DNA from: a virus
IMG/VR virus record: IMGVR_UViG_3300035670_000045
Location: 1 to 64,000 of that record
Strand: one strand, 5' to 3'
DNA: 64,000 nt
Part shown: positions 10,838 to 42,371 of the stretch, in pieces
Layout: each line of letters starts with the position of its first letter
Numbering within the stretch: position 1 is the first letter of the stretch
The notes under the pieces: generated by a model
The model's database searches: none
The model's input: the letters and a program-made list of their open reading frames with translations, nothing else
Told to the model about the DNA's origin: nothing
Position numbers and translations under genes: made by a program

Positions 10838-11758
10838 ATGTATCCAGTCCTCACACCCACCTCGATGCACTACTTCCATGACGAGCTTCGTAAGCTTGCC
10901 GCCGCTCCCCACATCCTCCCGGCTGCTGCATCCAAGGCGTTGATGTCCGCGGGCGCGCTTGGGGGAGTTGGGGCGGGTGTGGGTGCGGGGCTTGGTGCGC
11001 TTGCCGGCGGCGTTCGCGGGTACCGGGCTGCCCGGCAGGAGGGCGCTGGAGTCCTGGACTCCGTTCGGGCGGGCGGCGGCCAGGCGCTCCAAGGCGGCCT
11101 GTTGGGTGCTGGGGTGGGTGCTGGCGTGGGTGGCTTGGCCGGCGCTGTTGGCTCGCGCATGTCCCCTGACAAGATGGAGGCCATTCGGAGTCGGTTGACG
11201 GAGCGTTCCGGTCTTGCGCGGTTCGGGCAGCGTCAAATCCACGGGATCACTGGTGCGACGAACGCGGACGGCTTGAAGGGCCTTGGGATGGACTCCGAGC
11301 ACCGCAAAGCCACGCTGGACCAGCTCAAGGGCTCGGCACCCACCGCCAACCGTTGGGAGCAGTTCCGCGGGAAAACGCCGGAGCAAGTGGCGGCTCGTCA
11401 CCGAGACGACATCTCGAGGGCCTCTGAGGGCTTGGCGGCTGCGCGCCGAGCAGAGGCGATGGGGCTGACCAGCCTGCCGGGGATCGCACGGTCTGCGGTG
11501 AACGCTCCGTTGGACACGGCGCGTGCGGCCCTCGACCATCAGCTGAAGGGCACGGACGCGGGTACGCAGGGCCTGACGCTGGGCCTTTCCGGTCTGGGCG
11601 TTGGAATGGCTGCGCGGTCCCAAGAAGGGGATCAGCAGGGTGACCGCCTGAAGCGGGTGGGCCGAGCTGCGCTACACTCGGGGGCAGGGATCCTCACCGG
11701 CGGGTTGCCCATCCTCCCGAACATGCTGGCCAGCTCGATGCTGACGGGTAACTCATGA
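10838..11758 (+). CDS. Gly/Ala-rich, probably membrane-active virion protein
   Basis: The protein has 306 residues, starting at ATG 10838. After a 35-residue N-terminus that contains a KLAA motif, residues 40-110 are extremely Gly/Ala-rich with repeated GxGAGVGAG segments that could form small-residue transmembrane helices. The middle is charged and helical; a second hydrophobic Gly-rich stretch is at the C-terminus (LTLGLSGLGVGMAARS and GILTGGLPILPNML). The stop overlaps the portal ATG. Such glycine-zipper segments are common in ejected or membrane-contacting virion proteins; that role is inferred. Confidence 0.72.
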   Translation: MYPVLTPTSMHYFHDELRKLAAAPHILPAAASKALMSAGALGGVGAGVGAGLGALAGGVRGYRAARQEGAGVLDSVRAGGGQALQGGLLGAGVGAGVGGLAGAVGSRMSPDKMEAIRSRLTERSGLARFGQRQIHGITGATNADGLKGLGMDSEHRKATLDQLKGSAPTANRWEQFRGKTPEQVAARHRDDISRASEGLAAARRAEAMGLTSLPGIARSAVNAPLDTARAALDHQLKGTDAGTQGLTLGLSGLGVGMAARSQEGDQQGDRLKRVGRAALHSGAGILTGGLPILPNMLASSMLTGNS

Positions 11759-13722
11759 GCTTCTTCGGTCCGACTGCCTCGACGGTGAACCTGACCCCCC
11801 AGCGATACGGGGGGATGACCCAGGGGCGCATCTCCGGTGGCCTGCAGCCCGGCATGATGTACCCGTCGCCGTTCTTCGACGTGGCGCACACGTATCTGCC
11901 CACCACCGTGAAGCAGCTCTTTCGGTGGTCGAGGTACTACTACCTCACGAACGCCATCGTGGGGACGACCGCTTACCGGCTCTCGGAGTACCCCGTCACC
12001 GACATCTGGGTGAAGCACGAGGACACCAAGACGCGCGACAAGTGGCGCACGTTCCTGTTCAAGATCTTGCAGATCCGTACGTTCCAGATCGAGCTCGGTC
12101 TGGACTACAACGTGTACGGGAATGGGATCGTGACGATCGCTTTCCCCTTCGTGAAGCACCTCATCTGCATGAAGTGCAAGGCGCAAGGTACGGCCCGATC
12201 CCTTCGTCCGCATTGGACGATGTCGGAGTACACGTTCAAGCTCAAGTGCCCAAAGTGCGGTCATCACGGAAAGGCCGCTGCACGGGACATGTACGTGCGC
12301 AACTGGCGCCTCATCCGCCTCCTCCGCCACAACCCGGAGAACATCGATACGACGTACAACGAGATGACGGGACGGCAGACGTACTACTACAACCTACCGA
12401 CGTCGGTGAAGAACGACATCGTGCTTGGTCGGCAGGAGATCATCGAAGAGACGCCCCAGCTCTACCTGCAAGCGATCGCCGAGAACAAGGCGGTGGTGTT
12501 CAACCCGGACCTCGTCTTCCACATGAAGCGGCCGGGGTTGGCCGATTCTGACAGGGCGTGGGGTGTACCCTGTACGCTTCCCGTGCTGAAGGACCTGTTT
12601 CTCCTCCAGGTGATGAAGAAGGCGCAGGAAGCCGTCGCGCTCGAGCATGTCCTTCCGTTGCGCGTGCTGTTCCCGCAAGCGGGAAGCGGGTCGTCTGACC
12701 CCTACTCCTCCATCGACCTGTCCGACTGGAAGAACAAGGTGGCCACGGAGATTCAGCGGTGGAAACTCGATCGGAACTACATCCCGATCATGCCGCTGCC
12801 CATCGGAAACCAGACCATCGGCGGAGACGGCCGCACGATGTTCCTGACGCAAGAGATCACCCAGCAGATGGAGACCATCCTGGCTGGCATGGGTGTCATG
12901 CGCGAATTCGTGTACGGCGGGATGAGCTGGAGCGGATCGAACGCCTCTTTGCGGATGCTCGAGAACTCTCTCCTGCGGTACATGGAACGGCAGCAAGACT
13001 TCCGAGACTGGGTCGTCAAGAGCTGCGCGGACTACCTGGGGTGGCCGGAGGTGGAGACGGGTGCGCAGCCTTTCAAGATGGCGGACGACCTTCAGCGGAA
13101 GTCGCTCGAGCTCCAGCTGAACGCGTCTGGTTTGCTCAGCAGCACCACCTTCCTCAGCGGCATGGACTACGACTTCGAGAAGGAGGCGGTGCTTACCGAG
13201 AAAGAGACGGACCTCTCCATGCGAGCTCAACGTGCCAAGCAAGTGGCACAGGCAAAGTTGCAGGGGGAGCTGCAGGTCATCCAGGCAAAGTACACCCAAC
13301 AGGCCCAAGGGATGACGCAGCCTCCTCAACCGGAGGGTCAGCCCCCTCAGGCCGCCGCACCTCCGCCAGAGGGCGAGCAGCCCGCACAACCTCCGCCTTC
13401 TCCGGAGGAGCAAGCGGCTACAGAGGCCCCCGCGGGCGGGTCCCCTGCGGAGCAGGCATCTGCAAGCCCACTCGGCGCTCAGCCTCCTGGCGTGGACATC
13501 CGAGTGATCGCAGACATGACAGCAAGGGCGATCGAAGCGTTGCCCATCTCGGACCGGGCGGCGCGCATGGCTGCCGTGCAGTCCATGTCGGAGCCGTTGG
13601 CCGAGCTCGTGGGCCGCATTCTTGCGCAGCGTGGGGTACAGTTGGCGCCTGACCCCGTCGGGGTGGACAACCGGCCCTTGCCTGAGGCAGGTCCGCCGCA
13701 ACGGCTATCCGCGTCGGTGTAG
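11755..13722 (+). CDS. Portal protein with zinc-ribbon insertion
   Basis: The 655-residue protein has a portal-like architecture: an N-terminal wing, a core including the KNKVATEIQRWKLDRNYIPIMPLP region, then the stretch QEITQQMETILAGMG followed by FVYGGMSWSGSNAS, which resembles the crown/stem part of phage portals. A long Pro/Gln-rich disordered segment (about 510-580) precedes a helical C-terminus. Unusually, residues 137-170 hold a zinc-ribbon-like pair CMKC...CPKC. The portal is the dodecameric ring through which DNA is packaged and the tail attaches. It lies far from the terminase gene (32139) in this genome. Call by motif and size; not checked by structure. Confidence 0.8.
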   Translation: MSFFGPTASTVNLTPQRYGGMTQGRISGGLQPGMMYPSPFFDVAHTYLPTTVKQLFRWSRYYYLTNAIVGTTAYRLSEYPVTDIWVKHEDTKTRDKWRTFLFKILQIRTFQIELGLDYNVYGNGIVTIAFPFVKHLICMKCKAQGTARSLRPHWTMSEYTFKLKCPKCGHHGKAAARDMYVRNWRLIRLLRHNPENIDTTYNEMTGRQTYYYNLPTSVKNDIVLGRQEIIEETPQLYLQAIAENKAVVFNPDLVFHMKRPGLADSDRAWGVPCTLPVLKDLFLLQVMKKAQEAVALEHVLPLRVLFPQAGSGSSDPYSSIDLSDWKNKVATEIQRWKLDRNYIPIMPLPIGNQTIGGDGRTMFLTQEITQQMETILAGMGVMREFVYGGMSWSGSNASLRMLENSLLRYMERQQDFRDWVVKSCADYLGWPEVETGAQPFKMADDLQRKSLELQLNASGLLSSTTFLSGMDYDFEKEAVLTEKETDLSMRAQRAKQVAQAKLQGELQVIQAKYTQQAQGMTQPPQPEGQPPQAAAPPPEGEQPAQPPPSPEEQAATEAPAGGSPAEQASASPLGAQPPGVDIRVIADMTARAIEALPISDRAARMAAVQSMSEPLAELVGRILAQRGVQLAPDPVGVDNRPLPEAGPPQRLSASV

Positions 13723-17571: not shown

Positions 17572-17600
17572 TTGCGTGCGCGCCCCAGGCCGCCTAGTCT
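17572..17600 (+). promoter_or_regulatory. Promoter for leaderless RNA polymerase gene
   Basis: TTGCGT, a 17-base spacer, and TAGTCT. The -10 box ends six bases before the GTG at 17607, so transcription should start at or next to the start codon, giving a leaderless mRNA. No ribosome-binding site is visible. This is the best -35/-10 pair among five similar sites in the window. Confidence 0.65.
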
Positions 17601-17606
17601 TGGCCC

Positions 17607-20600
17607 GTGGCATACTCCGACCCCAACTCCGCCTTCGATCACCTGCACACGGAGACCTCGGAGGCCCTCGCCTCCCACTTCCCTATCGTCGGGAAGAAGT
17701 ACACGGTGCGGCTCGCCGGAACGACGCTCGGTCAACGGCTTGACCCCAACGACATCCGCTCGCAGTACCAGAAGCGAGTGGACGGTGGGTCGTACTCCGT
17801 CCCGCTTTACGGGAACCTGCAGCTCGTGGAGAACGAGACTGGAAAGGTCATGGAAGAGCGCAAGCTCCATCTCCTCGACCTTCCACAGATGACGAATCGG
17901 TTTTCGTACATCGTTGGCGGCAAGGAGTACCAGGTAGCCAACCAGTGGCAGTCCCGCGCGGGTGCGTACACGAAGCGCGGACAGAACGGCGAGCTCTCCA
18001 CCAGGTTCAACGTGCTGAATCGCAACCAGTTCGACCTGACCTTCCACCCAGAGACCAGCAACGTGGAGATGGAGGTCAAGTCTGCGCGCATCCCCGTGTA
18101 CCCGCTCCTCAAGGCACTGGGCGCGTCGGACTCGGAAATCGAAAAGCGTGTGGGCAAGGTGGCGTTCGAGTCCATGCGAGACGCCCGCGGTGTCGGGTCG
18201 GCACTGCGCCAGTTCTACAAGACGACCACGCGGAAGGACGCGGAGTCAGACGAGGCAGCGCACGCACACTTCGTGGACCAGATGAAAGAGTCCGTGATGG
18301 ACCCGCAGGTCACGAAGCACACACTCGGCGCGGAGATGTCTCATGTCACCGCGGACACACTCCTTCGTAGCATCGAGAAGCTGCAGAAGGTACACGGTGG
18401 AGCTCCCGAGGATGACAAGGACTCCCTCGTATTCAAGGGCCTGCGTTCCATCGGGGACTTCGCTGGTGACAAGATCCGAGCCCACGGTAAGGCCGTGCGG
18501 GAGCGCGTCGGTCGGCAACTCACTTCGGGGACTACACTTCGCCGCATCATCCCGCCCGGTCTGTTCAACGCGCCGCTGCGTGAGACATTCACGGACAACG
18601 CGGCGTCGGAGCTCGCAGCACAGATCAACCCGGTCGAGATGATCGGGAAGAACTTCCAGACAACGGTGCTCGGCCCAGGTGGCATCACCAGTGAGGACAA
18701 GATCCTCGACTCGGTGAAGCTCATCAACCGGTCGCACTTGGGCTTCCAAGACACGGTCGTCACCCCGGAATCCGGGCGTACAGGGGTAAACCTACGTCTC
18801 CCTCTGGGGCTTCAGAAGGTGGGCAAGGACGCCAAAATCTCGGTGTACAATCTGCGCACGGGTGCGCCCGAGATGGTGGACACCGGAACGTTCCTGACTT
18901 CCCACGTGGTCCTTCCGGACCAGGTGTCGTGGAAGAACGGCACACCGGTCCCGGTCGCTGCGGACGTCAAGGTGGCGGGCAAGGACAACGAGATTGAGGT
19001 GATGCCTTTCCACAAGGCGCACTACGTGATGCGGCACCCGAGCCAGGTGTTCTCCACGACCACCAACCTGATCCCGTTCCTGGCCAACGTGTCGGGTAAC
19101 CGGGCCTCGATGGCGACTCGTCACATCGAGCAGGCGATATCGCTCACGGACCGTGAGCCCCCGCTCGTGCAAGCAGCTTCGGGGCATCCGAATCCTCACC
19201 TTCGGACGTTCCACGACGTCATTGGGCGGCAGAGCGCACACATCTCGCCGTTCAACGGGAAAGTCGTGGCGGTGAAGCCGGACGGCATCCACATCCAGAC
19301 AGAGGCGGGGCTGAAGGAGGTGCAGATCTACAACCACTTCCCACTCAACGACGCGAAGTCGACCCTGCACTCCACCCCGGTGGTGAAGGTCGGGGACGAG
19401 GTGACGAAGGGCCAGCTCCTTGCGGACACGAACTACACGAAGAACGGCACGCTGGCTCTTGGGAAGAATCTGCGGGTGGCCTACCTGCCCTTCCGGGGCC
19501 TGAACTTCGAAGATGGGGTGGTCGTGTCCGAGACGGCAGCGAAGAAGCTGACCTCGAACCACATGTACAAGGACCAGCTCACGGTCACTCCGGAGACGAT
19601 TCTCGACAAGAAGAAGTTCCTGTACCACGTCGGCGGAGGGTACCGAAAAGACCAGGTCGAGAACATCGGCGATGACGGTGTTGTGCGGGTGGGCAGCAAG
19701 CTCCGGCCCGGAGACCCCATGATCCTCGCGATGTCTCCGTACGACCTCAAGTCCCGAATGGATGCGAGGTCGATCAATCGTGCGCTCACGGGGGCGCACA
19801 ACGACAAGTCCCTGCGGTGGCATGGGGACGTCGAGGGTGAGGTCGTAAGCGTGCACCGGTCGAAGGACGGTGTGCACGTGCATGTGAAGACCACGGAAGC
19901 GGCGAGGGTCGGGGACAAGCTGTCGTCCGCGAACGCAAACAAGGGCGTCATCTCGATGATCGTCCCTGACCACATGATGCCTCACACTCCAGACGGATCG
20001 CCCATCGAAGTAGCGCTCAACCCTTGCTATGACGACAAGACCGAGTTTTTGACCCGACGCGGTTGGGTCCGAGGCCCGGAGCTGGTCAACGAGGACATCT
20101 TTGCCACGATCAACCCGATGACGCTCCGGCTCGAGTACCAGCGTCCGGTGCAGGGCGTGTACCGCTGGAGGTACACGGGAAAGATGTACCGGCTGAAGAA
20201 CGCGCAGCTCGATTTGTGTGTGACCCCCAACCACAAGAACTTCGTCGCGAAGCGGGTACCTGGGGCACTGGGTCCTATCGACTTGGGATCCGTGCCGCCG
20301 GGCACTTTCCAGTTGGAGGAGGCGCAGGCAGGCTTTGGTCAGCCGCGCCGGCACCTGAAGGCTGCCGCGTGGGAAGGCACCCCCGTACATACGGTGCACG
20401 TACCCGCCGGGTCTCAGTGCGTCACAGGACCGAAGAACCAGCCACTGAATTTGTCGGAGAGTGACTACGCCGAGCTCATGGGGTGGTACCTGTCGGAGGG
20501 GTACTGCCAAAAGACCAAGTCGGGTGGGTACGTCGTGGCCATCTCTCAGTCGCGTACGGCCAACTCGGAGAAGTACGAGCGCATCGTAGCCCTCCTGACA

Positions 20601-23600
20601 CGCATCGGGCTTTCCCCCATCTTGGGCGACGAAGACATCCGAGTTCACCACAAGGGCCTCTTCGAGCTTTTGAAGCCGCTTGGGTATCAGCACGAGCGAT
20701 TCATCCCGGAGAGTGTTCAGTCCCTCCCTGCGGCTTCCCTGCGCGTGTTCCTCGACGCTTACCTCATGGGGGATGGGAGCCGACGGGATCGGCCGTCGGA
20801 CGGGCACCACGGCACGATGCGGTTTAGCACGACGAGTCGAGCCCTGGCGGACGGGATCCAGCTCGTTGCATTCAAGCTTGGCAGGGTCGTCAACGTTCAT
20901 CCGCCAAAGGTGCGCATGCGCAGCCAGATGGAGCGCCCGTGCTACGAGCTCTCGATTGGGGCGCGTCACCGTGCCCCTTGGGCGAACTGGTCGGAAGAGA
21001 CGAAGAAGAACCAGACGGAAGAGTGGGTGGACTACGACGGCACGGTGTACTGCACGGAGGTGCCGAACGGCGTCCTCGTGGTACGACGCAACGGCAAGGT
21101 AGTGATTTCGGGCAACAGCGGCGTGCCCGGTAGGATGAACCCCTCCCAGTTGTTGGAGACAGCGGCGTCAAAGATCGCGCTCAAGACGGGCAAGACGTTC
21201 ATCGTTCCGAACTTCAAGCACGGATACGATGCTGTGGCGCACGTACAGTCGGAGCTCGAGAAGCACGGGCTGACGGACACGGAGGAGCTCATCGACCCGG
21301 TTAGCAAGCAGAGCCTCGGGAAGGTCATGGTGGGTCACCAGCACATCCTCAAGCTGGTACACCAGTCGGACAAGAAAATCGGAGTGGCTTCTGGCATGAC
21401 GTTGCCAGGTGTACCGTCCGACGAGAAGTACGACGCGAACCTGCAGCCGAAGGGCGGCTCCCGTCTTGGGTCCCTCGGCACGTACGCGCTCTTGGCGCAT
21501 GGTGCGGTACACAACCTTCGTGAGTTCCAGACGTTCAAGGGGGAAGGAGAGGACCGTGAGGCTGACGGGTCCAAGCGTTGGCCGTCCCAGCACGTCGACG
21601 TGTGGAACGCCATTCAAACGGGGGCCCCGCTTCCTCTGCCCAAGAGCTCGTTTGCTTTCCACAAGTTCACGGAGATGCTCAAGGGGTCAGGCATCAACGT
21701 CGAGAAGAAGGGGCACGAGATCATCGCCAGCCCGCTGACCGATGCGCATGTCCTCGAGCTCGCTGGGAACCGAGTGCTCCCCAAGCCTGGTGACATCGTC
21801 AACGCCAAGATCGACAAGGCGACCGGAGAGCTCCAGCCTCGACCTGGGGGACTGTTCGATGTCAAGCTCACGGGCGGGCACAACGGGAAGAAGTGGTCGC
21901 GCATCGAGCTTCACGAGCCGATGCCAAACCCCATCTTCGAGGGGCCGATTCGCGCGTTGACCGGACTGAGCGCGGAGCACTTCCACGGCATCATCTCCGG
22001 CACCCACGGGGTGTCTGCCTCCGGCAAAGTGACCCCGGTCAAAGACGCGGTTCACCATGGGGGGCACGCCATCGCTCACCTTCTGAAGGGGATCGACGTC
22101 AAGAAGGAGCTGGAGGCTACCACCCAGGCGTTGAACAACGCCCCGCCCTCGAAGGTCGATGGCATCCTCAAGAAGGCCAAGTACCTCCGCGCACTCGATG
22201 GTCTTGGGCTCAACCCCCACGACGCGTACATCATGAAGAACGTGGCGGTCATCCCGCCCGCGTTCCGGCCCGTGTCCGTGCTGGGGGACGGCAAGAACAT
22301 CAACGTGGGTGACGTGAATCGCATCTACCGAGATGTCGGCATCCTGAACGAGCGCATGGGTCACTCTGCGCTGGACCAAGCGCCGGAGGTGAAGGCTGCC
22401 GTACGAAAGGACCTGTACGAGAGCATCCGGCAGATCAGTGGCGACGGCATCCCTTACGCAGATGCAAAGCACAAGGGGTTGCTGCATTTGCTGGCGGGGC
22501 CCGCGCCGAAGCAGGGGTTCATCCAAAAGCGACTGACCCAGAAACGGCAAGACTTGTCGCTCACCGCTGTCATCACACCGGAGCCCGCGCTCCATCTCGA
22601 TCAAGTCGGGCTCCCGAGGGACAAGGCGCTCGAGCTCTTCCGGCCGTTCGTGGTGCAGAAGCTTCAAGAGATGGGCTACGCCAAGCACCCCCTCGAGGCA
22701 CGAGCTGTACTGGCAAAGGCGGGGCCGGAGTCGTTCGCGGCACTGGAGAAGGTTGTTGCCGACCGCCCCGTACTCATCAAGCGTGACCCCGCACTCCACA
22801 AGTACTCCGTGCAGGGATTCGATGTGAAGCTCGTCGAGGGCAACACTATGAAGCTTCACCCGCTAGTTTGCGGGGGATTCACCGCTGACTTCGACGGGGA
22901 TAGTGCCCTAGGTGAGGTTATCGTTGTAGCTGCTGGGGGTGATGCGTGTCAGGGTGATCCGAAAGGGTTCCATATGCCGCACACGGGAGATGTCGCTTCA
23001 GCACGGGTGGTCGACCTCGCTGACTTTCCGAGGATCGAGGAGACCGCGCGCACCAATTCTCGCGGGGTGGTGGAGTACGACGTCCCTTCTGGGACGTACG
23101 TGCCCGCGTTCCACGAGGGGCGCATGCAGATGATGGCCGTGTCGGAGTACTCGGTGCACCCCAACTGTCGAGAGTGGAAAGTCACGACCCACCGCGGTCG
23201 GGAGCTACTCTGTTCCGAGAACCACAGCTTGGCTGTATTGGACCCGGACACGCTTGAAGTTGTGAAGAAGTCTCCTCGTGACGCGGAAGGCCTCGGCATC
23301 CCTGTGCTGCGAGACCTGGGGGAAACTACTGCGACCTGGGCCCTTCCTGGTGTCGCAGCAACGCACCACCGGGCGAAGCCCATGGTTGGGGAGGTCCCGC
23401 TCGACCGGTCCGTCGGGTGGTTCCTTGGGGCCACACTCGGAGACGGCTGGGTGTCCGACCTGTCACGTGGCCCGACGCAACAAGGGCGCTTCACGGGAAA
23501 GCTCAAGGAGCGTTCGGAGTGCAAGTCCCGGCAAGTGTGCCTGTCGTACGGAAAGGGCGAGGCCAGCGCGGCTGTTGCCGCCCACTGGGCCAAGGTTGCG

Positions 23601-26600
23601 GAGTCGCTAGTGAGTGACTCCATGTGCGGAGTGGCACACCTGCCTCACGAGTTCGAGGGCAAGCCCTGCACTTCGTACCGACTCACGCTGGCGAACACCA
23701 GCTTGGGTCTGTGGGTCGAGGAATTGATCGGTACGGGTGCAGAGCGAAAGCACTTGCCCGCCGACTTCCTCACGTACCCGCTGGAGTGCCGTCGGGGTCT
23801 CTTCTGCGGGCTGATGGATACGGACGGGACGGTGAACTGGGTGACTGCGAAGTCGAAGTCGACACCCCAGTTCCAGTGCTCGATCACGACGATCAGTCAG
23901 GAGCTCGCGGATGGTCTGCAGCTGTTGGCGGGGTCGGTAGGGGTGGTTTCCAACCGTACCGTGTACACCAACCGGGGCAAGCCTGTTTACCTGGTCAGCT
24001 TCTCCACACGCTCCATGCAGGATGCTGGGTGGGTGGAGTTGATCCATACGGGCAAACAAGCCAACCTGTCGAAGTTGTGGGCGACTGCTGGGGTCATGCA
24101 TGGGCGTGGGGACGTGGTCCCGATGCCGCCACGTGCACTTGAGGAGCTGCTCGAGCACCTGCGGGCGCTTGGTGCGGCTAAGAAAGACAAGGACGATTCC
24201 GAGAAGTCGGCGTTTGCGACCTACGCTGCACTGAAACGCACCACTCAGTACGTCACCCGTACCATGGTGGAAAAGCTCCAAGGACAGCTGCAGGGTCGAG
24301 AGCTGAGCGGCTACTTGTCGAAGTGGCTCCAGCTGGCCACTAACGCATCGTTGGGTTGGGACATCGTCACGTCGGCTGCAGCCACGGGCGAGACAAAGAC
24401 CATGTACGACCTCACGGTCCCCGATGCGTGGACCTTCACGATGGCGAATGGCGCGGTTGTATGGGACACAATGCGCGCTTATGTGCCGATCTCCAAGGAG
24501 GCGGTGCAGGAAGCACACCGCATGAAGCCCTCTCAGAACCTGTTCGCAGAGAGCACGGGCCAGATCATGTACGTACCCTCGCTCGACTCAGCGCTTGGGC
24601 TCTACAAGATGTCCCTGCCTGGGGCGAAGACCGACCACAAGTTCACTTCCACCCAAGACATCCTGGCAGCCGCCAAGTCTGGGAAGATGGGCCCTCGTGA
24701 CATCGTACAGTTGAACGGGAAGCCCACCACTGCAGCTCGTGTGTTGCTCGCTGACGCGTTGCCGGAAGCGATGCGGCCCAAGATGTTGCATGGGGTGGAC
24801 GATCACATCAATGGGAGCCGGCTCCGCGATTTGTACACGGAGATCGGAAAGTCGCATAAGGCCGAGTTCGCCAAATCCGCCGACGCCTTGAAAGACATCG
24901 GGAACCATGCCGCGTTCGGTACTGTCCCCATCCCCAACTCCAAGGATTACCTGACCATCGGCGCTCACTCCCTTTCCCTGGCGGACATGAAGACGCTGGC
25001 GGAGGTGCGTGACCCCGTGGTCAACGCCGCACATCACGACGTTGCCGAGATCCGGAAGAAGTTCGGGAAGACCCCGGATGCGGACGCGAAAGTCGTGGCG
25101 AGGTACAAGGAGGCGGAGAAGCAACTTCGCGCCCACATCGCTGCCATCCCACACGAGAAGGGCAACAACCTCCACACGATGTACCTGGCGGGGGTCAAGC
25201 CGGGGTGGGACCAGTACAAGCAGCTGATCTTTGGCCCGATGCTGCTCGAGGACTCCACGGGAAAGACCATCACCACGCCGGTGACGCGCAGCTACTCGGA
25301 AGGACTCGATGTCGCGGGGTACTGGACCCAGATGCACGGCGCACGTAAGGGTTCCGTGCAGAAGGTGCAGGAGGTCAGCGAGCCCGGCGCACTCACCAAG
25401 CTCATCATGCAGTCCACCCTTAACACGGTGGTGGCTGCGCCCGACTGCGGCACCTCCAGGGGCGTGTTGCTGCCGGTGAGTGGCGCGGCTTCGGACGTGC
25501 ACGACCGGGTACTTGCACGTGACTTCTCTCACGGAGGGCTGCATGTCCCGGCGGGGACTATCCTCGACCCCAGGGTCGTCGACAAGATCCGTGCGGCCAG
25601 CCCTACGGCACAGGTGCTCGTGCGCTCCCCGTTGAGGTGCGAGCACGGCAACGGGGTATGCCAGAAGTGCGCTGGGCTGTCGCCCAACGGGCACCATCAC
25701 CCGTTGGGGACAAACATCGGGGTCATCGCGTCCCAGACGGTGGGCGAGCGTGCGGTGCAGCTGATGCTCAAGAGCTTCCACTCCGGAGGTACCGCCTCCA
25801 TCGGCGGAGGGCCCACGCTCATCGGCGGGTTCAAGCGGCTCGAGCAGCTCACTACCCTGCCGGAGAAGGTACCCAACCAGGCCACGTTGGCGATGCGCTC
25901 GGGGACGATCAGCAAGATCGAGCACAAGCCTACGGGTGTGGACGTGTACGTCGACGGGCACAAGCACTTCGTGGGCAAGGACCCGTCCGGACAGGAGCTC
26001 CACAAGCCCCACGCTGGCTCCCAGTGGACGGGCCTGGCCGTGGGCCAGACCGTGAAGGCCGGGGATCACCTGTCGGATCCGACGCGTAGCATCGTGAACC
26101 CCCGGGACCTCTACAAGGCCACGGGCAGTATCGAGGTCGTACAGAATCACCTGGCGGACGAGATGCACAAGCTGTACGCCAGTGAGAACGTGAAGCGTCG
26201 ACACTTGGAGACCGTGGTGCGTGGCCTCACCAGCGTCACGAAGGTGGTGGACCCCGGCGGTGCCAGCGGGATCCTACGCGGTGAGTTCAAGCCGTTGGCG
26301 TCCGTGCACAGCCTCAACAAGGAGCTGCAGAAGGCGGGACGTCCACTCATCGAGCACACGCCTACCCTCCGCGGAGTGGAGACCGTCCCGCACGACATGC
26401 AGGACGATTGGATCGCCAAGCTGCAGCACCGACGCATCATCGACACCCTGACGGGCGCGGCTGCGCTAGGATCGAAGGCGAACATCCATGGCACCCACCC
26501 GATCACGGGGTTGGCGTACGGTGCACGCTTCGGATTGACGAAGCGGCACTCGGCGCAGCCCGGGCTTCACGACCACAAGGACGTACCGGAGCACTACTAC

Positions 26601-26603
26601 TGA
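17607..26603 (+). CDS. Fused beta-beta' RNA polymerase with two inteins
   Basis: A 2998-residue precursor, about 2112 residues after removal of two inteins. The first part is a beta subunit: NPVEMIG...LGPGGI (about 342-360), SGNRASMATRH (about 496-505, cf. ANRALM), LPFRGLNFEDGVVVSE (about 627-642), GDKLSSANANKGVIS (about 769-783) and, across intein 1, LNP/SGVPGRMNPSQ. The second part is beta': TADFDGD (1759-1765), the Mg-binding catalytic loop interrupted by intein 2, then bridge helix YWTQMHGARKGSVQ (about 2572), zinc site CEHGNGVCQKC (about 2680) and GVIASQTVGERAVQ with FHSGG (about 2705-2730). It is one open frame with no internal stop. No alpha, omega or sigma gene is seen in the window. 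It starts with GTG, probably leaderless. It should transcribe phage genes; promoter specificity and assembly partners are unknown. Confidence 0.95.
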   Translation: MAYSDPNSAFDHLHTETSEALASHFPIVGKKYTVRLAGTTLGQRLDPNDIRSQYQKRVDGGSYSVPLYGNLQLVENETGKVMEERKLHLLDLPQMTNRFSYIVGGKEYQVANQWQSRAGAYTKRGQNGELSTRFNVLNRNQFDLTFHPETSNVEMEVKSARIPVYPLLKALGASDSEIEKRVGKVAFESMRDARGVGSALRQFYKTTTRKDAESDEAAHAHFVDQMKESVMDPQVTKHTLGAEMSHVTADTLLRSIEKLQKVHGGAPEDDKDSLVFKGLRSIGDFAGDKIRAHGKAVRERVGRQLTSGTTLRRIIPPGLFNAPLRETFTDNAASELAAQINPVEMIGKNFQTTVLGPGGITSEDKILDSVKLINRSHLGFQDTVVTPESGRTGVNLRLPLGLQKVGKDAKISVYNLRTGAPEMVDTGTFLTSHVVLPDQVSWKNGTPVPVAADVKVAGKDNEIEVMPFHKAHYVMRHPSQVFSTTTNLIPFLANVSGNRASMATRHIEQAISLTDREPPLVQAASGHPNPHLRTFHDVIGRQSAHISPFNGKVVAVKPDGIHIQTEAGLKEVQIYNHFPLNDAKSTLHSTPVVKVGDEVTKGQLLADTNYTKNGTLALGKNLRVAYLPFRGLNFEDGVVVSETAAKKLTSNHMYKDQLTVTPETILDKKKFLYHVGGGYRKDQVENIGDDGVVRVGSKLRPGDPMILAMSPYDLKSRMDARSINRALTGAHNDKSLRWHGDVEGEVVSVHRSKDGVHVHVKTTEAARVGDKLSSANANKGVISMIVPDHMMPHTPDGSPIEVALNPCYDDKTEFLTRRGWVRGPELVNEDIFATINPMTLRLEYQRPVQGVYRWRYTGKMYRLKNAQLDLCVTPNHKNFVAKRVPGALGPIDLGSVPPGTFQLEEAQAGFGQPRRHLKAAAWEGTPVHTVHVPAGSQCVTGPKNQPLNLSESDYAELMGWYLSEGYCQKTKSGGYVVAISQSRTANSEKYERIVALLTRIGLSPILGDEDIRVHHKGLFELLKPLGYQHERFIPESVQSLPAASLRVFLDAYLMGDGSRRDRPSDGHHGTMRFSTTSRALADGIQLVAFKLGRVVNVHPPKVRMRSQMERPCYELSIGARHRAPWANWSEETKKNQTEEWVDYDGTVYCTEVPNGVLVVRRNGKVVISGNSGVPGRMNPSQLLETAASKIALKTGKTFIVPNFKHGYDAVAHVQSELEKHGLTDTEELIDPVSKQSLGKVMVGHQHILKLVHQSDKKIGVASGMTLPGVPSDEKYDANLQPKGGSRLGSLGTYALLAHGAVHNLREFQTFKGEGEDREADGSKRWPSQHVDVWNAIQTGAPLPLPKSSFAFHKFTEMLKGSGINVEKKGHEIIASPLTDAHVLELAGNRVLPKPGDIVNAKIDKATGELQPRPGGLFDVKLTGGHNGKKWSRIELHEPMPNPIFEGPIRALTGLSAEHFHGIISGTHGVSASGKVTPVKDAVHHGGHAIAHLLKGIDVKKELEATTQALNNAPPSKVDGILKKAKYLRALDGLGLNPHDAYIMKNVAVIPPAFRPVSVLGDGKNINVGDVNRIYRDVGILNERMGHSALDQAPEVKAAVRKDLYESIRQISGDGIPYADAKHKGLLHLLAGPAPKQGFIQKRLTQKRQDLSLTAVITPEPALHLDQVGLPRDKALELFRPFVVQKLQEMGYAKHPLEARAVLAKAGPESFAALEKVVADRPVLIKRDPALHKYSVQGFDVKLVEGNTMKLHPLVCGGFTADFDGDSALGEVIVVAAGGDACQGDPKGFHMPHTGDVASARVVDLADFPRIEETARTNSRGVVEYDVPSGTYVPAFHEGRMQMMAVSEYSVHPNCREWKVTTHRGRELLCSENHSLAVLDPDTLEVVKKSPRDAEGLGIPVLRDLGETTATWALPGVAATHHRAKPMVGEVPLDRSVGWFLGATLGDGWVSDLSRGPTQQGRFTGKLKERSECKSRQVCLSYGKGEASAAVAAHWAKVAESLVSDSMCGVAHLPHEFEGKPCTSYRLTLANTSLGLWVEELIGTGAERKHLPADFLTYPLECRRGLFCGLMDTDGTVNWVTAKSKSTPQFQCSITTISQELADGLQLLAGSVGVVSNRTVYTNRGKPVYLVSFSTRSMQDAGWVELIHTGKQANLSKLWATAGVMHGRGDVVPMPPRALEELLEHLRALGAAKKDKDDSEKSAFATYAALKRTTQYVTRTMVEKLQGQLQGRELSGYLSKWLQLATNASLGWDIVTSAAATGETKTMYDLTVPDAWTFTMANGAVVWDTMRAYVPISKEAVQEAHRMKPSQNLFAESTGQIMYVPSLDSALGLYKMSLPGAKTDHKFTSTQDILAAAKSGKMGPRDIVQLNGKPTTAARVLLADALPEAMRPKMLHGVDDHINGSRLRDLYTEIGKSHKAEFAKSADALKDIGNHAAFGTVPIPNSKDYLTIGAHSLSLADMKTLAEVRDPVVNAAHHDVAEIRKKFGKTPDADAKVVARYKEAEKQLRAHIAAIPHEKGNNLHTMYLAGVKPGWDQYKQLIFGPMLLEDSTGKTITTPVTRSYSEGLDVAGYWTQMHGARKGSVQKVQEVSEPGALTKLIMQSTLNTVVAAPDCGTSRGVLLPVSGAASDVHDRVLARDFSHGGLHVPAGTILDPRVVDKIRAASPTAQVLVRSPLRCEHGNGVCQKCAGLSPNGHHHPLGTNIGVIASQTVGERAVQLMLKSFHSGGTASIGGGPTLIGGFKRLEQLTTLPEKVPNQATLAMRSGTISKIEHKPTGVDVYVDGHKHFVGKDPSGQELHKPHAGSQWTGLAVGQTVKAGDHLSDPTRSIVNPRDLYKATGSIEVVQNHLADEMHKLYASENVKRRHLETVVRGLTSVTKVVDPGGASGILRGEFKPLASVHSLNKELQKAGRPLIEHTPTLRGVETVPHDMQDDWIAKLQHRRIIDTLTGAAALGSKANIHGTHPITGLAYGARFGLTKRHSAQPGLHDHKDVPEHYY
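20025..21116 (+). other. Intein 1 of RNA polymerase (LAGLIDADG), in the beta GVPSRMN block
   Basis: Residues 807-1170 of the precursor, 364 residues. It begins with Cys807 (CYDDKTEF) and ends SGN before Ser1171; the penultimate residue is Gly instead of His. Block B contains TPNH. LAGLIDADG-like motifs are LMGWYLSEG near 957 and LDAYLMGDGS near 1049. The flanking host sequence joins as VALNP/SGVPGRMN, matching the nearly invariant beta motif LNPxGVPSRMN, so the borders are well supported. Confidence 0.9.
22902..24467 (+). other. Intein 2 of RNA polymerase (LAGLIDADG), in the beta' catalytic loop
   Basis: Residues 1766-2287, 522 residues. It is inserted right after TADFDGD, whose three Asp residues bind the catalytic Mg, and before TMRAYVPIS; the spliced product DFDGDTM matches the beta' family. 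It starts with Ser1766 and ends VVWD before Thr2288, so both terminal residues are non-standard (Asp for Asn, Trp for His). Block B contains SENH; block F reads MYDLTVPDAWTF. Endonuclease motifs are LGATLGDGW near 1940 and GLMDTDGT near 2069, both with acidic residues. It is longer than the other two inteins. Confidence 0.88.
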
Positions 26604-27781
26604 TGCCTCTGAAGCCATCTCCCCCGCCCCTACCGTCCCGGTTTCGTTCGTCCTACACGCACAAGGAGGGGGCGAACCCGGGTCAGGTGGAGATGCTGGA
26701 GTGCCGTGTCGTGAACGTCGACATGGTCAACTGGACGGTCGACGTGTACGCCGTCTTCGACCAACGTCGTTTTTTCCACGTGCAGGTAGGCGCCCCTTAT
26801 CTGCACCACTCCAACGGGGAAGGCATCTACGTCATGCCGGAGCTCCATGCGAAGTGCATGCTGTGCCTGCCGGCGGACAGCTCCCCTCCGCATGTCGCGT
26901 ACTTCTTGATGGCGTTCGAGAACGTGGACACCGCGTCGGAGGAAGCTCCGGAAGGTACCGTGTCTCGAGGAGTTACGGGCATGAAGCCGTCGGGTGCCTC
27001 GTTCGCCGGGGGGCGTCCTCGGCACAACCCCGGGGACATCGTGCTACGGGGCAGGGACGGGAACTTCGTTGTCCTCCGGCGTGGCGGGGTGCTGGAGATC
27101 GGCTCGACGGAGCTCTGCCAGCGCATGTGCATCCCCCTGTCGAACACCATGGTGGACGTGTCCGAGAACTACTACCACCACACACCCGGCGGCACGGAGT
27201 ACTGGGGCATCCTGCCTGGGCGTAATGAGGGGAAGTCCGCCACGGAGCACTTCCAGAGTTTTCGCGTGTGGGCCGAGGACAAGTTCGCCGACGTCCGCGT
27301 CAAGATCGGAAAGGTCGGCGACCCCGCGAAAGGCCTCACTGGGAATGGGGTAGTCGGCGATGTGGTCTACGAGGTGTCCGTAGCCCCACAAGGCATCGAT
27401 CCGGAGAGCGGCGCGTACCACGACGTGAACAAGCTCGTGTACCGGATGACCGTGGACCGAGAGGGCAACACCGTGTTGGGGGCGAAGCAAGACCTGACGG
27501 TATACGCAGCTCGACGGCTGCGGCTCGAGTCGGGCGGGTCGATGACCATCCAGGCAAAGGCGGACATCGACATGAAGGCCAGCAGCGGTGTCACCGTCGA
27601 TGGCGGTGCGTTCACGACGATTCGAGGCAGTGTTGTGAAATTGGGGCCGGGTGCTAAGCCCGTGGCGACTCAGGGCAGCATGGTCCGCCTCACGTTCCCG
27701 TTCACCCCGATGGTGGCTGCCCCCGTCCCCATGATCCTCAACGGGATCATCATCACTGGCTCACCCACGGTTCTGGCGTAA
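26603..27781 (+). CDS. Baseplate spike / gp5-VgrG-like protein candidate
   Basis: The 392-residue product starts at an ATG overlapping the RNA polymerase stop (TGATG). The N-terminal part includes an OB-like region (ECRVVNVDMVNWTVDVYAVFD). The C-terminal third has regular short alternating strands typical of triple-stranded beta-helix spikes (LTVYAARRLRLESG, SMTIQAKADIDMKAS, VTVDGG, TIRGSVVKLG), as in T4 gp5 and VgrG tail spikes that puncture the outer membrane. The call rests on this repeat pattern. A myovirus needs such a protein. The next gene may supply the spike tip or a partner. Confidence 0.68.
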   Translation: MPLKPSPPPLPSRFRSSYTHKEGANPGQVEMLECRVVNVDMVNWTVDVYAVFDQRRFFHVQVGAPYLHHSNGEGIYVMPELHAKCMLCLPADSSPPHVAYFLMAFENVDTASEEAPEGTVSRGVTGMKPSGASFAGGRPRHNPGDIVLRGRDGNFVVLRRGGVLEIGSTELCQRMCIPLSNTMVDVSENYYHHTPGGTEYWGILPGRNEGKSATEHFQSFRVWAEDKFADVRVKIGKVGDPAKGLTGNGVVGDVVYEVSVAPQGIDPESGAYHDVNKLVYRMTVDREGNTVLGAKQDLTVYAARRLRLESGGSMTIQAKADIDMKASSGVTVDGGAFTTIRGSVVKLGPGAKPVATQGSMVRLTFPFTPMVAAPVPMILNGIIITGSPTVLA

Positions 27782-32138: not shown

Positions 32139-33968
32139 ATGAGCCAGCCCTTCTCAGCCTCTGACACGTTGGACGACGACAACGAGGAGGTCCAGCTTCT
32201 CTCAGACGACGAGATGCGTCGTATCCATGAGGGTGGGATCTGGTTCCCCGAGCCCGAGCCGATCGAGTGGCTCTACGACGGTTCGGAGGAGGAAGACGCC
32301 GGCGTCCGCGGTACCGTGCCTCTGAAGCTGTCGGACTTCACCAAGTTCGCGTTCCGTTTGCCCTCGGGGGACACCGGGGAGTTTGCGCCGTTCTCCTTCG
32401 AGGGTCGGCGTCACATGCTTCGGATCTACGACACTTCGGCCAAGAAGATCCTCCTCATCTGCGCCCGCCAGACGGAGAAGAGCACGTCCCTTGGGAACAA
32501 GTCGATCGGGCGTAGCTGCCTGATTCCTGGGCACAAGACGCTATACGTGTCGCCGTCCGCTCTGCAGTCCAAGACGTTCTCGATGGACCGTATCAAGGAC
32601 CCCATCGAGACGAGCGAGATTCTGAGGGGCTACACCACCAGGCACCTCAGCCAGAACGTCTTCCAGAAGCAGTTCGTGAATCGCAGCCAGATCATGCTGC
32701 GTTACGCGTTCCTCAACGCGGACCGGGTACGCGGTACGACTCCCTGGTCGATCATCCTCGACGAGTTCCAGGACTTCCTCGCGGACACCATCCCCGTCAT
32801 CGAGCAAGCGTCCTCCCACGCTCCGGCAAACCACCGCACGTTCATGTACGCGGGGACCCCGAAAGGGGCGGACAACCCCATCGAGTACCACTGGTCGGGG
32901 GTCACCCGGCTGGGTAAGCCGATGTCCACGATGTGCGAGTGGGTGGTGCCGTGCGAGGGGTGCAGGCACTGGAACATCCTCGGCGAGAAAAACATCGGGA
33001 AGAAGTTCCTCATCTGTGAGCGGTGCGGGAAGCAGATCCACCCGCAACACGATCGAGCCCAGTGGGCGGCAGGAAATGCGAACGCGGAGTACGAGGGGTA
33101 CCGCATCAACCAGCTGATGGTCCCGTGGCGAAAGTGGGACGACATCCTGGCGGACTACGGCAAGTACACCCGGGACAGGTTCTACAACGAGGTGCTCGGC
33201 ATCTCGTTCGACTCCGGTATCCGTCCTCTCACGCTCGCGGAGCTCAAAGCGAACTGCAACAGCAGCGTCAGCATGGCGGAGCTCCGGCTCGAGGCGTTCC
33301 GCAAGCAGCTCATCTCCGACAATGCGCCCGTGTTCGCCGGGGTGGACTGGGGGCAGGACGGCTCGAGTTACACGGTTTTGACCTTGGCGACCTACGTCAA
33401 CAACCGGTTCCGCGTGTTCTTCATCCACCGGTTCGAAGGGGCGGACTTGGAGCCGGATGTCCAAGTGGCGAAGATCATCCGCATATGTCGGGCGTACCGC
33501 GTCAAGGTCATCGGTGTGGACTACGGCGCGGGGTACGTGCAGAACAAGCAGCTCATCCACGCCTTTGGGGCGACGGTGGTGCAGCAGTACCAGTACGCGG
33601 TGCGTCTTCGGGCCAAGCTCGCTCGCGAAAAGAACAATCGACGCTGGATCGTGAACCGGTCGGAGATCATGAGCGACATGTTCTCTGCGCTCAAGCGTAA
33701 GAACGTGTTCGAGCTGCCACGGTGGGAGGAGTTCGGGACGCCTTACGGCCAAGACATCCGAAACATCTACACGGAGTACAACGACAAGCTGCGCATCATC
33801 GTGTACCAGCACCGGCCGGACCGGCCGGATGACAGCTTCCACTCCATCACGTTCTGCTTCCTGGCATCGATGCTGGTTCGTCCACGCCCGGACATCATCA
33901 CTCCGCGTCGTGAGCTTTTCCCCGAGCCGATCCTTTGGAGCTACGACGACGGTGCTTCTCAAGGTTGA
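32139..33968 (+). CDS. Terminase large subunit
   Basis: The 609-residue packaging ATPase and nuclease. ATPase: Walker A-like CARQTEKST (about 108-116) and Walker B WSIILDEFQD (about 202-211). RNase H-like nuclease: FAGVDWGQDGSSY (about 400), VIGVDYGAGY (about 457) and a DDSFHS segment (about 564) supply acidic residues. Between them lies a zinc-ribbon-like pair CEGC...CERC (about 270-295), as in GpA-type terminases. It cuts and pumps the genome through the portal. The gene is flanked on both sides by single minus-strand genes; the downstream one overlaps its 3' end by 71 bases. Confidence 0.93.
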   Translation: MSQPFSASDTLDDDNEEVQLLSDDEMRRIHEGGIWFPEPEPIEWLYDGSEEEDAGVRGTVPLKLSDFTKFAFRLPSGDTGEFAPFSFEGRRHMLRIYDTSAKKILLICARQTEKSTSLGNKSIGRSCLIPGHKTLYVSPSALQSKTFSMDRIKDPIETSEILRGYTTRHLSQNVFQKQFVNRSQIMLRYAFLNADRVRGTTPWSIILDEFQDFLADTIPVIEQASSHAPANHRTFMYAGTPKGADNPIEYHWSGVTRLGKPMSTMCEWVVPCEGCRHWNILGEKNIGKKFLICERCGKQIHPQHDRAQWAAGNANAEYEGYRINQLMVPWRKWDDILADYGKYTRDRFYNEVLGISFDSGIRPLTLAELKANCNSSVSMAELRLEAFRKQLISDNAPVFAGVDWGQDGSSYTVLTLATYVNNRFRVFFIHRFEGADLEPDVQVAKIIRICRAYRVKVIGVDYGAGYVQNKQLIHAFGATVVQQYQYAVRLRAKLAREKNNRRWIVNRSEIMSDMFSALKRKNVFELPRWEEFGTPYGQDIRNIYTEYNDKLRIIVYQHRPDRPDDSFHSITFCFLASMLVRPRPDIITPRRELFPEPILWSYDDGASQG

Positions 33969-41240: not shown

Positions 41241-42371
41241 ATGACTGCCATCCCCGTCACTTCCCTCAACCAGGCCTTCATCCAGAAGGTCGCGACCCAA
41301 GAGGGACGCGAGAAGATCGCCGCCACGACGGACGACTTCATCCGCGACCGTCTCCGCGAAAGCGCGTTCGTCCGCCAGATCCTCGACGTCGAGGACGTCA
41401 AGCCGGGCGATCCCGGGGTGCAGGTCAGCCTCACCCAGGACACGATCTACAAGGTCGTGGAGGTCGAGCCCCGGACCCGCGCGCTCGCGATGAGCTTCCG
41501 CGGTCAGCCGGAGATCAACTACATCTCGGCGCCCCGTCTCGCCGTCGGCTTCTTCAAGATCTCTTCGGAGAACATCCAGAAGAGCGAGGAGGAGCTCATG
41601 GCCTACCGGTACCCGATCACCAAGATCTTCGAGGACCAGAGCCTCAAGGATCTCCAGGACATCGAGGACCGTGAGTTCTGCATCCACCAGGAAGCGGCCG
41701 TCCAGGCCTACCAGGCGGAAGCGAACGGCGGGTCGGTCGTCGCGCTCACCTCCACGGCGGTCCGCGCGAACTCGGTGGTCCAGTACTCCGTCTTCAAGTC
41801 GGACATGGCCCTCGCCCAGACGGTCGACAACGCGGTCGCGATGCCCATCCAGCGCCAGGACATCCCGAAGCTGAAGCGCGCGATCCTCAGCCGCCGCCTC
41901 TCGTACGAGTGCATGCTCATCACGGAGTCGGACCTCACGTCGACCGACACCTGGACCATCCAGGACCTCGGCCTCCAGCTCACCTCGGACACCGCGATCG
42001 AGGGCTGGAAGCAGAACAAGCTCCTCGGCGTCCGCCTCGTCCGCACCATCAAGACGGACATCCTGCGCAACGGCAACGTGTACCTGTACACGGCGCCGAA
42101 GTTCTTCGGGAAGATGTTCATCCTGAACCAGCCCAAGTTCTGGATCGACAAGAAGTACAACATCATCTCGTTCCAGGTCTGGGAGAACATCGGCATGGTG
42201 CTCGCGAACATCGCCAGCATCGTGAAGCTCGAGACGTACTCGGGCGACGCCACGACGGTGAACACCAACGGCATCCTCGCCAGCGTCACGCCGGTGCCCG
42301 AGGCGTCCATCGGCGCGCTCAACAACCGGGTCGCGCAGGGGCTCAACTTCCCCTCGATCCAGCTGTACTGA
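41241..42371 (+). CDS. Major capsid protein
   Basis: 376 residues starting at ATG 41241 behind AAGGAG. It lies between the decoration candidate and a strong terminator, right after protease and scaffold. The architecture fits a major capsid protein: an N-terminal arm with KVAT and KIAA sites (about 16 and 25), a helical spine domain, and a C-terminal beta-rich domain (FFGKMFILNQPKFWIDKKYNIISFQVWENIGMV region). Composition and codon use are strongly biased to C-ending codons, as expected for the most abundant virion protein. Called from context and layout; no named family motif. Confidence 0.8.
   Translation: MTAIPVTSLNQAFIQKVATQEGREKIAATTDDFIRDRLRESAFVRQILDVEDVKPGDPGVQVSLTQDTIYKVVEVEPRTRALAMSFRGQPEINYISAPRLAVGFFKISSENIQKSEEELMAYRYPITKIFEDQSLKDLQDIEDREFCIHQEAAVQAYQAEANGGSVVALTSTAVRANSVVQYSVFKSDMALAQTVDNAVAMPIQRQDIPKLKRAILSRRLSYECMLITESDLTSTDTWTIQDLGLQLTSDTAIEGWKQNKLLGVRLVRTIKTDILRNGNVYLYTAPKFFGKMFILNQPKFWIDKKYNIISFQVWENIGMVLANIASIVKLETYSGDATTVNTNGILASVTPVPEASIGALNNRVAQGLNFPSIQLY

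Follow-up and report, generated by a model that had tools for sequence, protein, structure and literature searches.

The window analyzed here comprises positions 1 to 64,000 of the IMG/VR virus record IMGVR_UViG_3300035670_000045, which is 126,743 bases in length. Positions 17607–26603 of the plus strand form a single open reading frame (ORF) of 2998 codons with a GTG start and no internal stop. The ORF encodes a near-complete bacterial-type RNA polymerase (RNAP) β subunit followed by β′, interrupted by two inteins of 364 and 522 amino acids. The landmarks of β appear in order at 19497 (GLNFEDG), 19911 (GDKLS), 19938 (NKGVIS), and, after the first intein, 21111 (GNSGVPGRMN). Those of β′ follow with ADFDGD at 22884–22901 and, after the second intein, DTMRAYVPIS at 24465, CEHGNGVC at 25638, and FHSGG at 25776. 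An initial annotation of this sequence had described the landmarks of both subunits in one uninterrupted frame of about 2112 residues after splicing, and both statements are borne out. The DFDGD loop that it listed is also present, with the correction that the window reads TADFDGD where bacteria have NADFDGD. The Pfam matches of the ORF are Rpb2_6 (3e-44), Rpb1_2 (5e-20), Rpb1_5 (4e-18), and LAGLIDADG_3 (2e-14), and Intein_splicing is detected at 9e-7 with a bit score under the family cut-off.

Extein 1 (17607–20024) carries β through the lysines of its double-psi β-barrel (DPBB), to about residue 1100 of E. coli β, as located by the landmarks and by mapping to E. coli. Intein 1 (20025–21116; 364 amino acids, Cys1...Asn, with Ser at +1) lies between LNP and SGVPGRMN. 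Extein 2 (21117–22901) contains the C-terminus of β (E. coli 1102–1340), a short linker, and the N-terminal part of β′, which has the clamp helices and the active-site loop ADFDGD and is without the zinc-binding domain (ZBD). Intein 2 (22902–24467; 522 amino acids, Ser1...Asp, with Thr at +1) contains a LAGLIDADG endonuclease and is inserted inside DFDGD^T. Extein 3 (24468–26603) provides the C-terminal part of β′ with the bridge helix, zinc site 2, the trigger loop (FHSGG), and the remaining C-terminal part. All five segments are on the plus strand. When the exteins were compared with solved structures using phmmer, the best matches were bacterial RpoB and RpoC chains, with E values of 1e-62 for extein 1 (β chain 8syi_C) and of 1e-40 and 5e-47 for the β′ portions of exteins 2 and 3, respectively. 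Weaker matches for the β extein include chain 7s00_C, which we take to be the AR9 phage enzyme (1e-10), and the best archaeal β among the matches listed (1e-8). As read from these alignments, a complete bacterial-type core is encoded as one chain in a tailed phage.

The inteins occupy amino acids 807–1170 and 1766–2287 of the precursor, and their boundaries are supported by empty sites in relatives. Intein 1 is missing, with an uninterrupted alignment, in L007, L008, L009, L011, L013, L014, and L016. The near-identical contig L006 (extein identity 99.3–100%) retains intein 1 and lacks intein 2, which leaves the clean empty site DFDGD-T-MRAY. Both inteins would be expected to splice from the window precursor. 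Of 105 long fused ORFs left after dereplication, 18 contain large intein-like inserts (>120 amino acids), 27 in all; the intein check was made for the two of the window. The 27 inserts are located in the DFDGD loop (11), the β GDK–NKG block (6), β at about 564–575 (4), the trigger loop (4), β at about 1100 (1, that of the window), and β at about 1295 (1).

Relatives were collected in three scans of viral_contigs, two of which kept the best 80 of at least 492 and the best 80 of 283 matches. The scans provided 170 IMG/VR loci with RNAP matches from many metagenomes, some of them on the same contigs. In 153 of these loci β, the middle portion, and β′C are found in one ORF, and in 149 both ends of the ORF lie inside the locus. 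Sixteen of the other 17 loci are truncated by the end of the locus, and in L180 the frame is interrupted by one TGA. The 100 complete fused ORFs (stop to stop) are 2051–2262 amino acids long without large inserts, and the 18 cases with inserts are 2408–3259 amino acids long. As a control, 80 hit-bearing genome_contigs loci, some of them truncated, were processed, and all three parts were recovered in one ORF only in the Helicobacter locus L235, which is presumably the known RpoBC fusion; its recovery indicates that the method detects fusions. The initial annotation had considered a complete fused enzyme unusual in a virus. The completeness of the fusion is upheld, and the Asp triad and most of the essential residues are retained. 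The window is no lone oddity, and by these loci the one-ORF fusion is the usual state across a large clan of metagenomic phages.

The coding sequence is also conserved at the codon level. Comparison of the exteins of the window and L006 gave 247 synonymous single-change codons against 5 non-synonymous ones, with 4 multi-change codons set aside. The synonymous proportions (pS) for exteins 1, 2, and 3 are 0.20, 0.17, and 0.11, and the corresponding non-synonymous proportions (pN) are 0.001, 0, and 0.002, respectively. On these codon counts the exteins are under strong purifying selection.

Residues were tallied in E. coli numbering over 106 fused phage rows, left after dropping rows more than 90% alike, and 68 rows from bacteria and metagenome-assembled genomes (MAGs). 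The catalytic residues D460, D462, K1065, K1073, R678, R1106, and R425 are found in all 106 fused rows, and D464 (two gaps) and the trigger-loop H936 are found in 104. The Mg-binding DxDxD triad of β′, whose loss would have spoken against a working enzyme, is present, in the window as ADFDGD. In zinc site 2, C814, C888, and C895 are kept in 104 rows and C898 in 102; E813/D814 are kept in nearly all rows. At the fusion point β is aligned to E. coli residue 1340 and is followed by about 13 model columns before β′ begins at about residue 30. The β′ ZBD (C70, C72, C85, C88) has no corresponding model column, and E. coli β′ 64–144 is unaligned. The clamp-helix residues R275 and E295, which we take to be sigma contacts, are found in 68 of 68 bacterial rows and in none of the 106 fused rows, with a local shift of the alignment possible. 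H526, presumably a rifampicin contact, is present in 63 of 68 bacterial rows and in 0 of 106 fused rows.

The junction was modeled with AlphaFold using the intein-free relative L008 (1093 amino acids, 52 sequences). The mean predicted local distance difference test (pLDDT) is 88.6 and the predicted template modeling score (pTM) is 0.78. This single chain matches both the β and β′ chains of solved bacterial RNAPs, with partial coverage in each case (template modeling score, TM, about 0.40–0.45 of the query). In the viral structure library, no match listed exceeds a TM of 0.41 to the query.

In four of 50,697 phage records the matches cover 80% or more of the query; these are Salmonella phage Arash (OQ632216) and Vibrio phages D69, D148, and D181. 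In Arash and D69, β and β′ through the catalytic loop are joined in one ORF of about 1525–1546 amino acids, and β′C is a separate gene (gp216 in Arash). D181 has the same layout with an interrupted gene, and five genomes found via the sigma search described below are also two-piece. Where the ends could be measured (L321–L323), the break falls near E. coli β′ 550–570. The interruption in D181 (L005, 9513–10411) consists of small genes, including a homing endonuclease, that split β and possibly mark an intron; the gene of D148 is likewise broken up, and a homing endonuclease separates its pieces. The Arash-type phages share with the window phage the fusion of β to the N-terminal part of β′, a homologous sigma factor, and a portal homologue upstream, and they differ from it in the separate β′C gene and in these interruptions. 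Many other matching phage records look like misfiled bacterial sequence (Listeria, Staphylococcus, Salmonella, Acinetobacter) and were not used. The best PHROG hits, 24349 and 25354, were entertained as separate phage β and β′ families and, because of their lengths, are taken as cellular-like RpoB and RpoC.

In a FastTree phylogeny of 113 phage and 68 bacterial or MAG rows, the phages form one clade (support 0.925), in which the 106 fused rows are one clade (1.0) and the 7 two-piece rows, Arash and D69 among them, are its sister (0.964). An IQ-TREE analysis of 36 taxa gave ultrafast bootstrap values of 94 for the phage clade and 95 and 100 for the other two groupings, and a 67-taxon IQ-TREE without bootstraps left the topology unchanged. 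The trees were built without archaea and eukaryotes, and the support for the phage clade is below maximum. By these trees the fused clan is separate from all sampled bacteria, and a recent acquisition from the host is ruled out. Most simply, the β–β′N fusion would be ancestral to the clan, and the β′N/β′C state would have changed once. The short MAG contig L187 appeared phage-like by tblastn and is placed outside the phage clade in the tree.

The initial annotation had stated that no alpha or sigma gene lies in the window. This is true of these 64 kb, and α was found in none of the 34 long RNAP records; in the window record beyond the window, however, a sigma70-family gene is located at 89162–89923. 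Its 253-amino-acid product is homologous to Arash gp10, which is annotated as a sigma factor, and it matches Sigma70_r3 over the cut-off (27.1 vs 25.3 bits). With an alignment of three homologues as the query, sigma was detected in 33 of the 34 long records; three of these are the seeds, which gives 30 of the 31 others. Sigma70_r3 is detected in 31 of the 34 and is above the cut-off in 21. In the reverse search, sigma was found on 23 contigs, 15 of which carry the RNAP, and these are all 15 contigs of at least 118,970 bases; the 8 without the RNAP are 9.7–81.7 kb. Three of the 15 are also among the 34 long records. Among phage isolates, at E values up to 0.01, the sigma matches the four RNAP phages and, weakly, S-LBS1. 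A profile of 18 sigma sequences matches PDB SigA with an E value of 2.4e-18 over positions 35–232 of 239. Arash has two proteins annotated as sigma, gp196 (L003, 2531–3568) and gp10 (L027, 11877–12593), and it is the gp10 family that is inherited together with the RNAP. Searches for α (PF01193, PF01000) and ω (PF01192) gave 0 of 34 long records each, which as virus records may be fragments; in 14 control genomes the same families were positive in 13, 13, and 14, respectively.

Upstream regions of the window record are enriched for GGGATAAGA. GGATAAG appears at 12 sites in the record against 1.4 expected, with none in the window; the sites are at 72–74 and 88–90 kb (around the sigma gene) and at 109, 121, and 124 kb (L022–L025). 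GG[GT]ATAAG was counted against a second-order expectation and was found 10 times in the window record (0.5 expected), 8 times in 80 of the 185 kb of G015 (0.2), 4 times in 57 of the 177 kb of G007 (0.2), and 22 times in 100 of the 181 kb of Arash (5.1), where the GGTATAAG motif is present. It is depleted in bacterial loci (36 vs 85 expected), and three altered patterns gave no comparable enrichment. GCAA occurs exactly 20 nt upstream of 9 of the 12 G015 and G007 sites (background 0.004 per position), and TG is found about 12 nt downstream of many sites. From these counts GG[GT]ATAAG looks like a putative −10 element, with GCAA as a −35 element in some members of the clan. A general −35 role for GCAA was discarded after a recount confined it to G015 and G007. 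The RNAP neighborhoods of G015 and G007 contain no motif. Confinement of the motif to non-structural regions was also considered and rejected, and no early/late split is claimed because Arash and G005 carry the motif near the RNAP (10 and 4 sites in the RNAP neighborhoods, respectively). Boxes resembling TAGTCT or TAGGAT were noticed by eye near gene starts, including that of the RNAP gene (17595–17600); we take them to resemble the −10 boxes of high-GC hosts.

The best overall explanation, which is considered probable, is that a spliced single-chain core works with a phage sigma factor, without α and ω, at promoters marked by the motif, and is possibly virion-borne. The two inteins would excise themselves from the precursor to leave a self-assembling bacterial-type core of 2112 amino acids. 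The covalent β–β′ fusion would substitute for the α-dimer assembly platform, and under this proposal α and ω would therefore not be needed. The sigma70-family factor (89162–89923) would bind the core and set promoter specificity by recognizing GG[GT]ATAAG at −10 and, in some relatives, GCAA 20 nt before it. By analogy with Arash, the virion may carry core and sigma and inject both, so that phage genes would be transcribed at once. That the lineage as a whole uses a two-protein holoenzyme, composed of the fused chain and a dedicated sigma, free of α and ω, virion-borne, and with its own GG[GT]ATAAG promoters (GCAA 20 nt upstream in part), is put forward tentatively, at slightly under an even chance.

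Arash virion preparations contain Gp206 (3516 spectra, the most of all proteins), Gp216 (1210), and the sigma Gp10 (467) (PMC10585845), and it is therefore plausible that the enzyme is packaged and injected in the manner of the phiKZ virion RNAP. In the fully fused phages the enzyme may be packaged by the same analogy.

A number of observations count against the proposed holoenzyme. The Arash authors allow that enzymes may merely be carried over into purified particles (PMC10585845). Transcription, production, and activity of the fully fused form are predictions from sequence. One of the 34 long records, G009, lacks a sigma match. In the window record, scans for Sigma70 regions 2 and 4 gave nothing at an E value of 1, and Pfam recognizes region 2 in 5 and region 4 in 3 of the 18 sigma homologues. 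The AlphaFold model of the sigma homologue is poor (pLDDT 74.5, pTM 0.36), and its structure matches are mostly sigma factors with a root-mean-square deviation over 20 Å; the sigma assignment is for these reasons carried by sequence evidence. GG[GT]ATAAG is enriched only about twofold in 80 of the 181 kb of G005 (13 vs 6.2), and it is absent from the window, so that none precedes the RNAP gene. GCAA at −20 accompanies 2 of the 10 window-record sites, 1 of the 22 Arash sites, and 0 of the 13 G005 sites (3 of 13 within two bases). Finally, the window copy has a long branch and is changed at two near-invariant sites, N458T (N in 98 of 106 rows) and R352T (R in 105 of 106). The Thr codons are at 22881–22883 (also Thr in L030) and 22563–22565 (unique among the 106 rows), respectively. 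N458 is presumably the ribose-selecting residue, and the sugar selectivity of the window enzyme could therefore differ.

The two substitutions and the long branch, together with two inteins in the active-site region, would also suit an enzyme that is losing its function in this phage. This reading is considered very improbable, since the 9-kb frame is intact, the changes relative to L006 are 247 synonymous vs 5 non-synonymous, and Thr at 458 recurs in L030. Still less credence, close to none, is given to an assembly chimera or frameshift that joined separate β and β′ genes: the contig is metagenomic, but the same fusion recurs across many metagenomes (153 of 170 loci), and in 149 of these loci the ORF lies wholly inside the locus. 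With the empty site of L006 and the purifying selection, the relatives that carry the same fusion exclude misassembly of the frame.

Two further explanations concern the motif and the partners of the core. The GG[GT]ATAAG sites might be an operator or a host-type −10 element and not the promoter of the phage sigma; TATAAG resembles the −10 hexamer, and GCAA is not general. This is regarded as rather unlikely, given that the same core is shared by phages of 49–64% GC, that bacterial loci are depleted for it, and that the GCAA spacing is fixed in G015 and G007. Alternatively, the core could be genuine and active and yet require host α and/or host sigma, with the phage sigma homologue serving the host RNAP or another role. 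The position of the RNAP gene in a motif-free region would fit such a dependence, but R275 and E295 are absent from every fused row (their contact role is our assumption, and misalignment is possible), the ZBD has no column, and sigma accompanies the RNAP in both search directions. Phages without an RNAP often encode a sigma that is thought to redirect the host enzyme (PMC7824862, PMC13282480). Overall, dependence on host factors is judged unlikely. The initial annotation had suggested that the enzyme may work without α and sigma or borrow those of the host. The loss of the two clamp-helix residues, to which we attribute sigma contacts, and of the β′ ZBD lowers the probability that host sigma is borrowed, and the record contains a sigma of its own.

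The proposed single-chain core and its sigma can be placed among known phage enzymes. Like the RNAPs of phiKZ and AR9, it is a phage-encoded relative of β and β′ without α or ω, and it differs from them in its single ORF, in the accompanying sigma-family gene, and in a similarity that is distant (7s00, E 1e-10, with AR9 as our assumed identity of that entry). The phiKZ-type RNAPs consist of at least four or five polypeptides and are described as having no sigma homologue, α, or ω (PMC13282480), and as multi-polypeptide enzymes without sigma (PMC7824862). The crAss-like gp66, YonO, and gp64/gp96 of Thermus phage P23-45 are single-chain, two-barrel phage RNAPs (PMC10770324) that are highly divergent and simplified (PMC7481178, PMC10770324). 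The window enzyme also has both DPBBs in one chain; unlike these enzymes as described, its clamp helices, zinc site 2, trigger loop, and much of β align to the bacterial subunits. No crAss, YonO, or P23-45 enzyme is among the best 60 PDB matches listed, the best of which are bacterial RpoB and RpoC at 1e-40 to 1e-62. Helicobacter RpoBC (L235) has β then β′ in one ORF as in the window, but it is cellular and outside the phage clade.

The closest published group is that of the multi-subunit RNAP-encoding Caudovirales (mReC) of Weinheimer and Aylward (2020), with near-full bacterial-type β and β′ (PMC7481178). These are also tailed phages in a clade apart from cells, and the window clan is probably the same as or overlapping with mReC. 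In contrast to the window clan, the mReC enzymes are treated as two subunits, and in the main text crAssphage is the only case for which a fusion is named, with no reference to sigma or inteins (PMC7481178). NADxDGD was the mReC search filter (PMC7481178), which 98 of the 106 fused rows would satisfy at N and the TADFDGD of the window fails. No description of this fusion was found in the literature searched, which comprised excerpts of open-licence PMC papers; phages with near-full β and β′ were already published as mReC (PMC7481178). In a hydrothermal-mat paper, a viral gene 'encoding RNAP beta and beta prime' is named near mReC, and the fusion may already have been noticed there in passing (PMC10159854). 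The lineage is thus probably known, and the single-chain architecture, the co-inherited sigma, and the candidate promoter were not found described in the literature searched.

If the lineage does use such a two-protein holoenzyme, it would be the simplest sigma-dependent bacterial-type RNAP known. The fused enzyme makes testable whether α becomes dispensable once β and β′ are covalently joined, how sigma acts on a core without the ZBD and the conserved clamp-helix residues, and whether the phage RNAPs that branch beside bacteria go back to a single capture and a later fusion. A two-gene, sigma-programmable RNAP would be a useful laboratory tool, and the sister-group isolates Arash and Vibrio phage D69 are available as experimental material.

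The remaining genes identified in the window are those of a tailed phage. A portal protein is encoded upstream of the RNAP, as in Arash, at 11755–13722 (weak PHROG portal match, 7e-4; blastp 4e-86 to an Arash ORF annotated as portal). Directly downstream, a baseplate/spike-like protein is encoded at 26603–27781 (weak PHROG baseplate matches, 1e-3 and 7e-3), and its homologue is also directly 3′ of the RNAP in L007, L009, and L010. The terminase large subunit is at 32139–33968 (PHROG 675, 1e-50; Arash large terminase, 5e-37), and the major capsid protein is at 41241–42371 (PHROG 2522, major head protein, 9e-9). A tail sheath-like protein, which would indicate a contractile tail, is weakly assigned at 53838–57266 (PHROG 279, 5e-5; no Pfam match at 0.1). 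All five genes are on the plus strand. LAGLIDADG or Hint (intein-like) matches are also present in a DnaB-like helicase on the minus strand of the window (2074–4533) and in an SNF2-type helicase of the record (83019–86963), the latter of which resembles the Arash ORF adjoining β′C.

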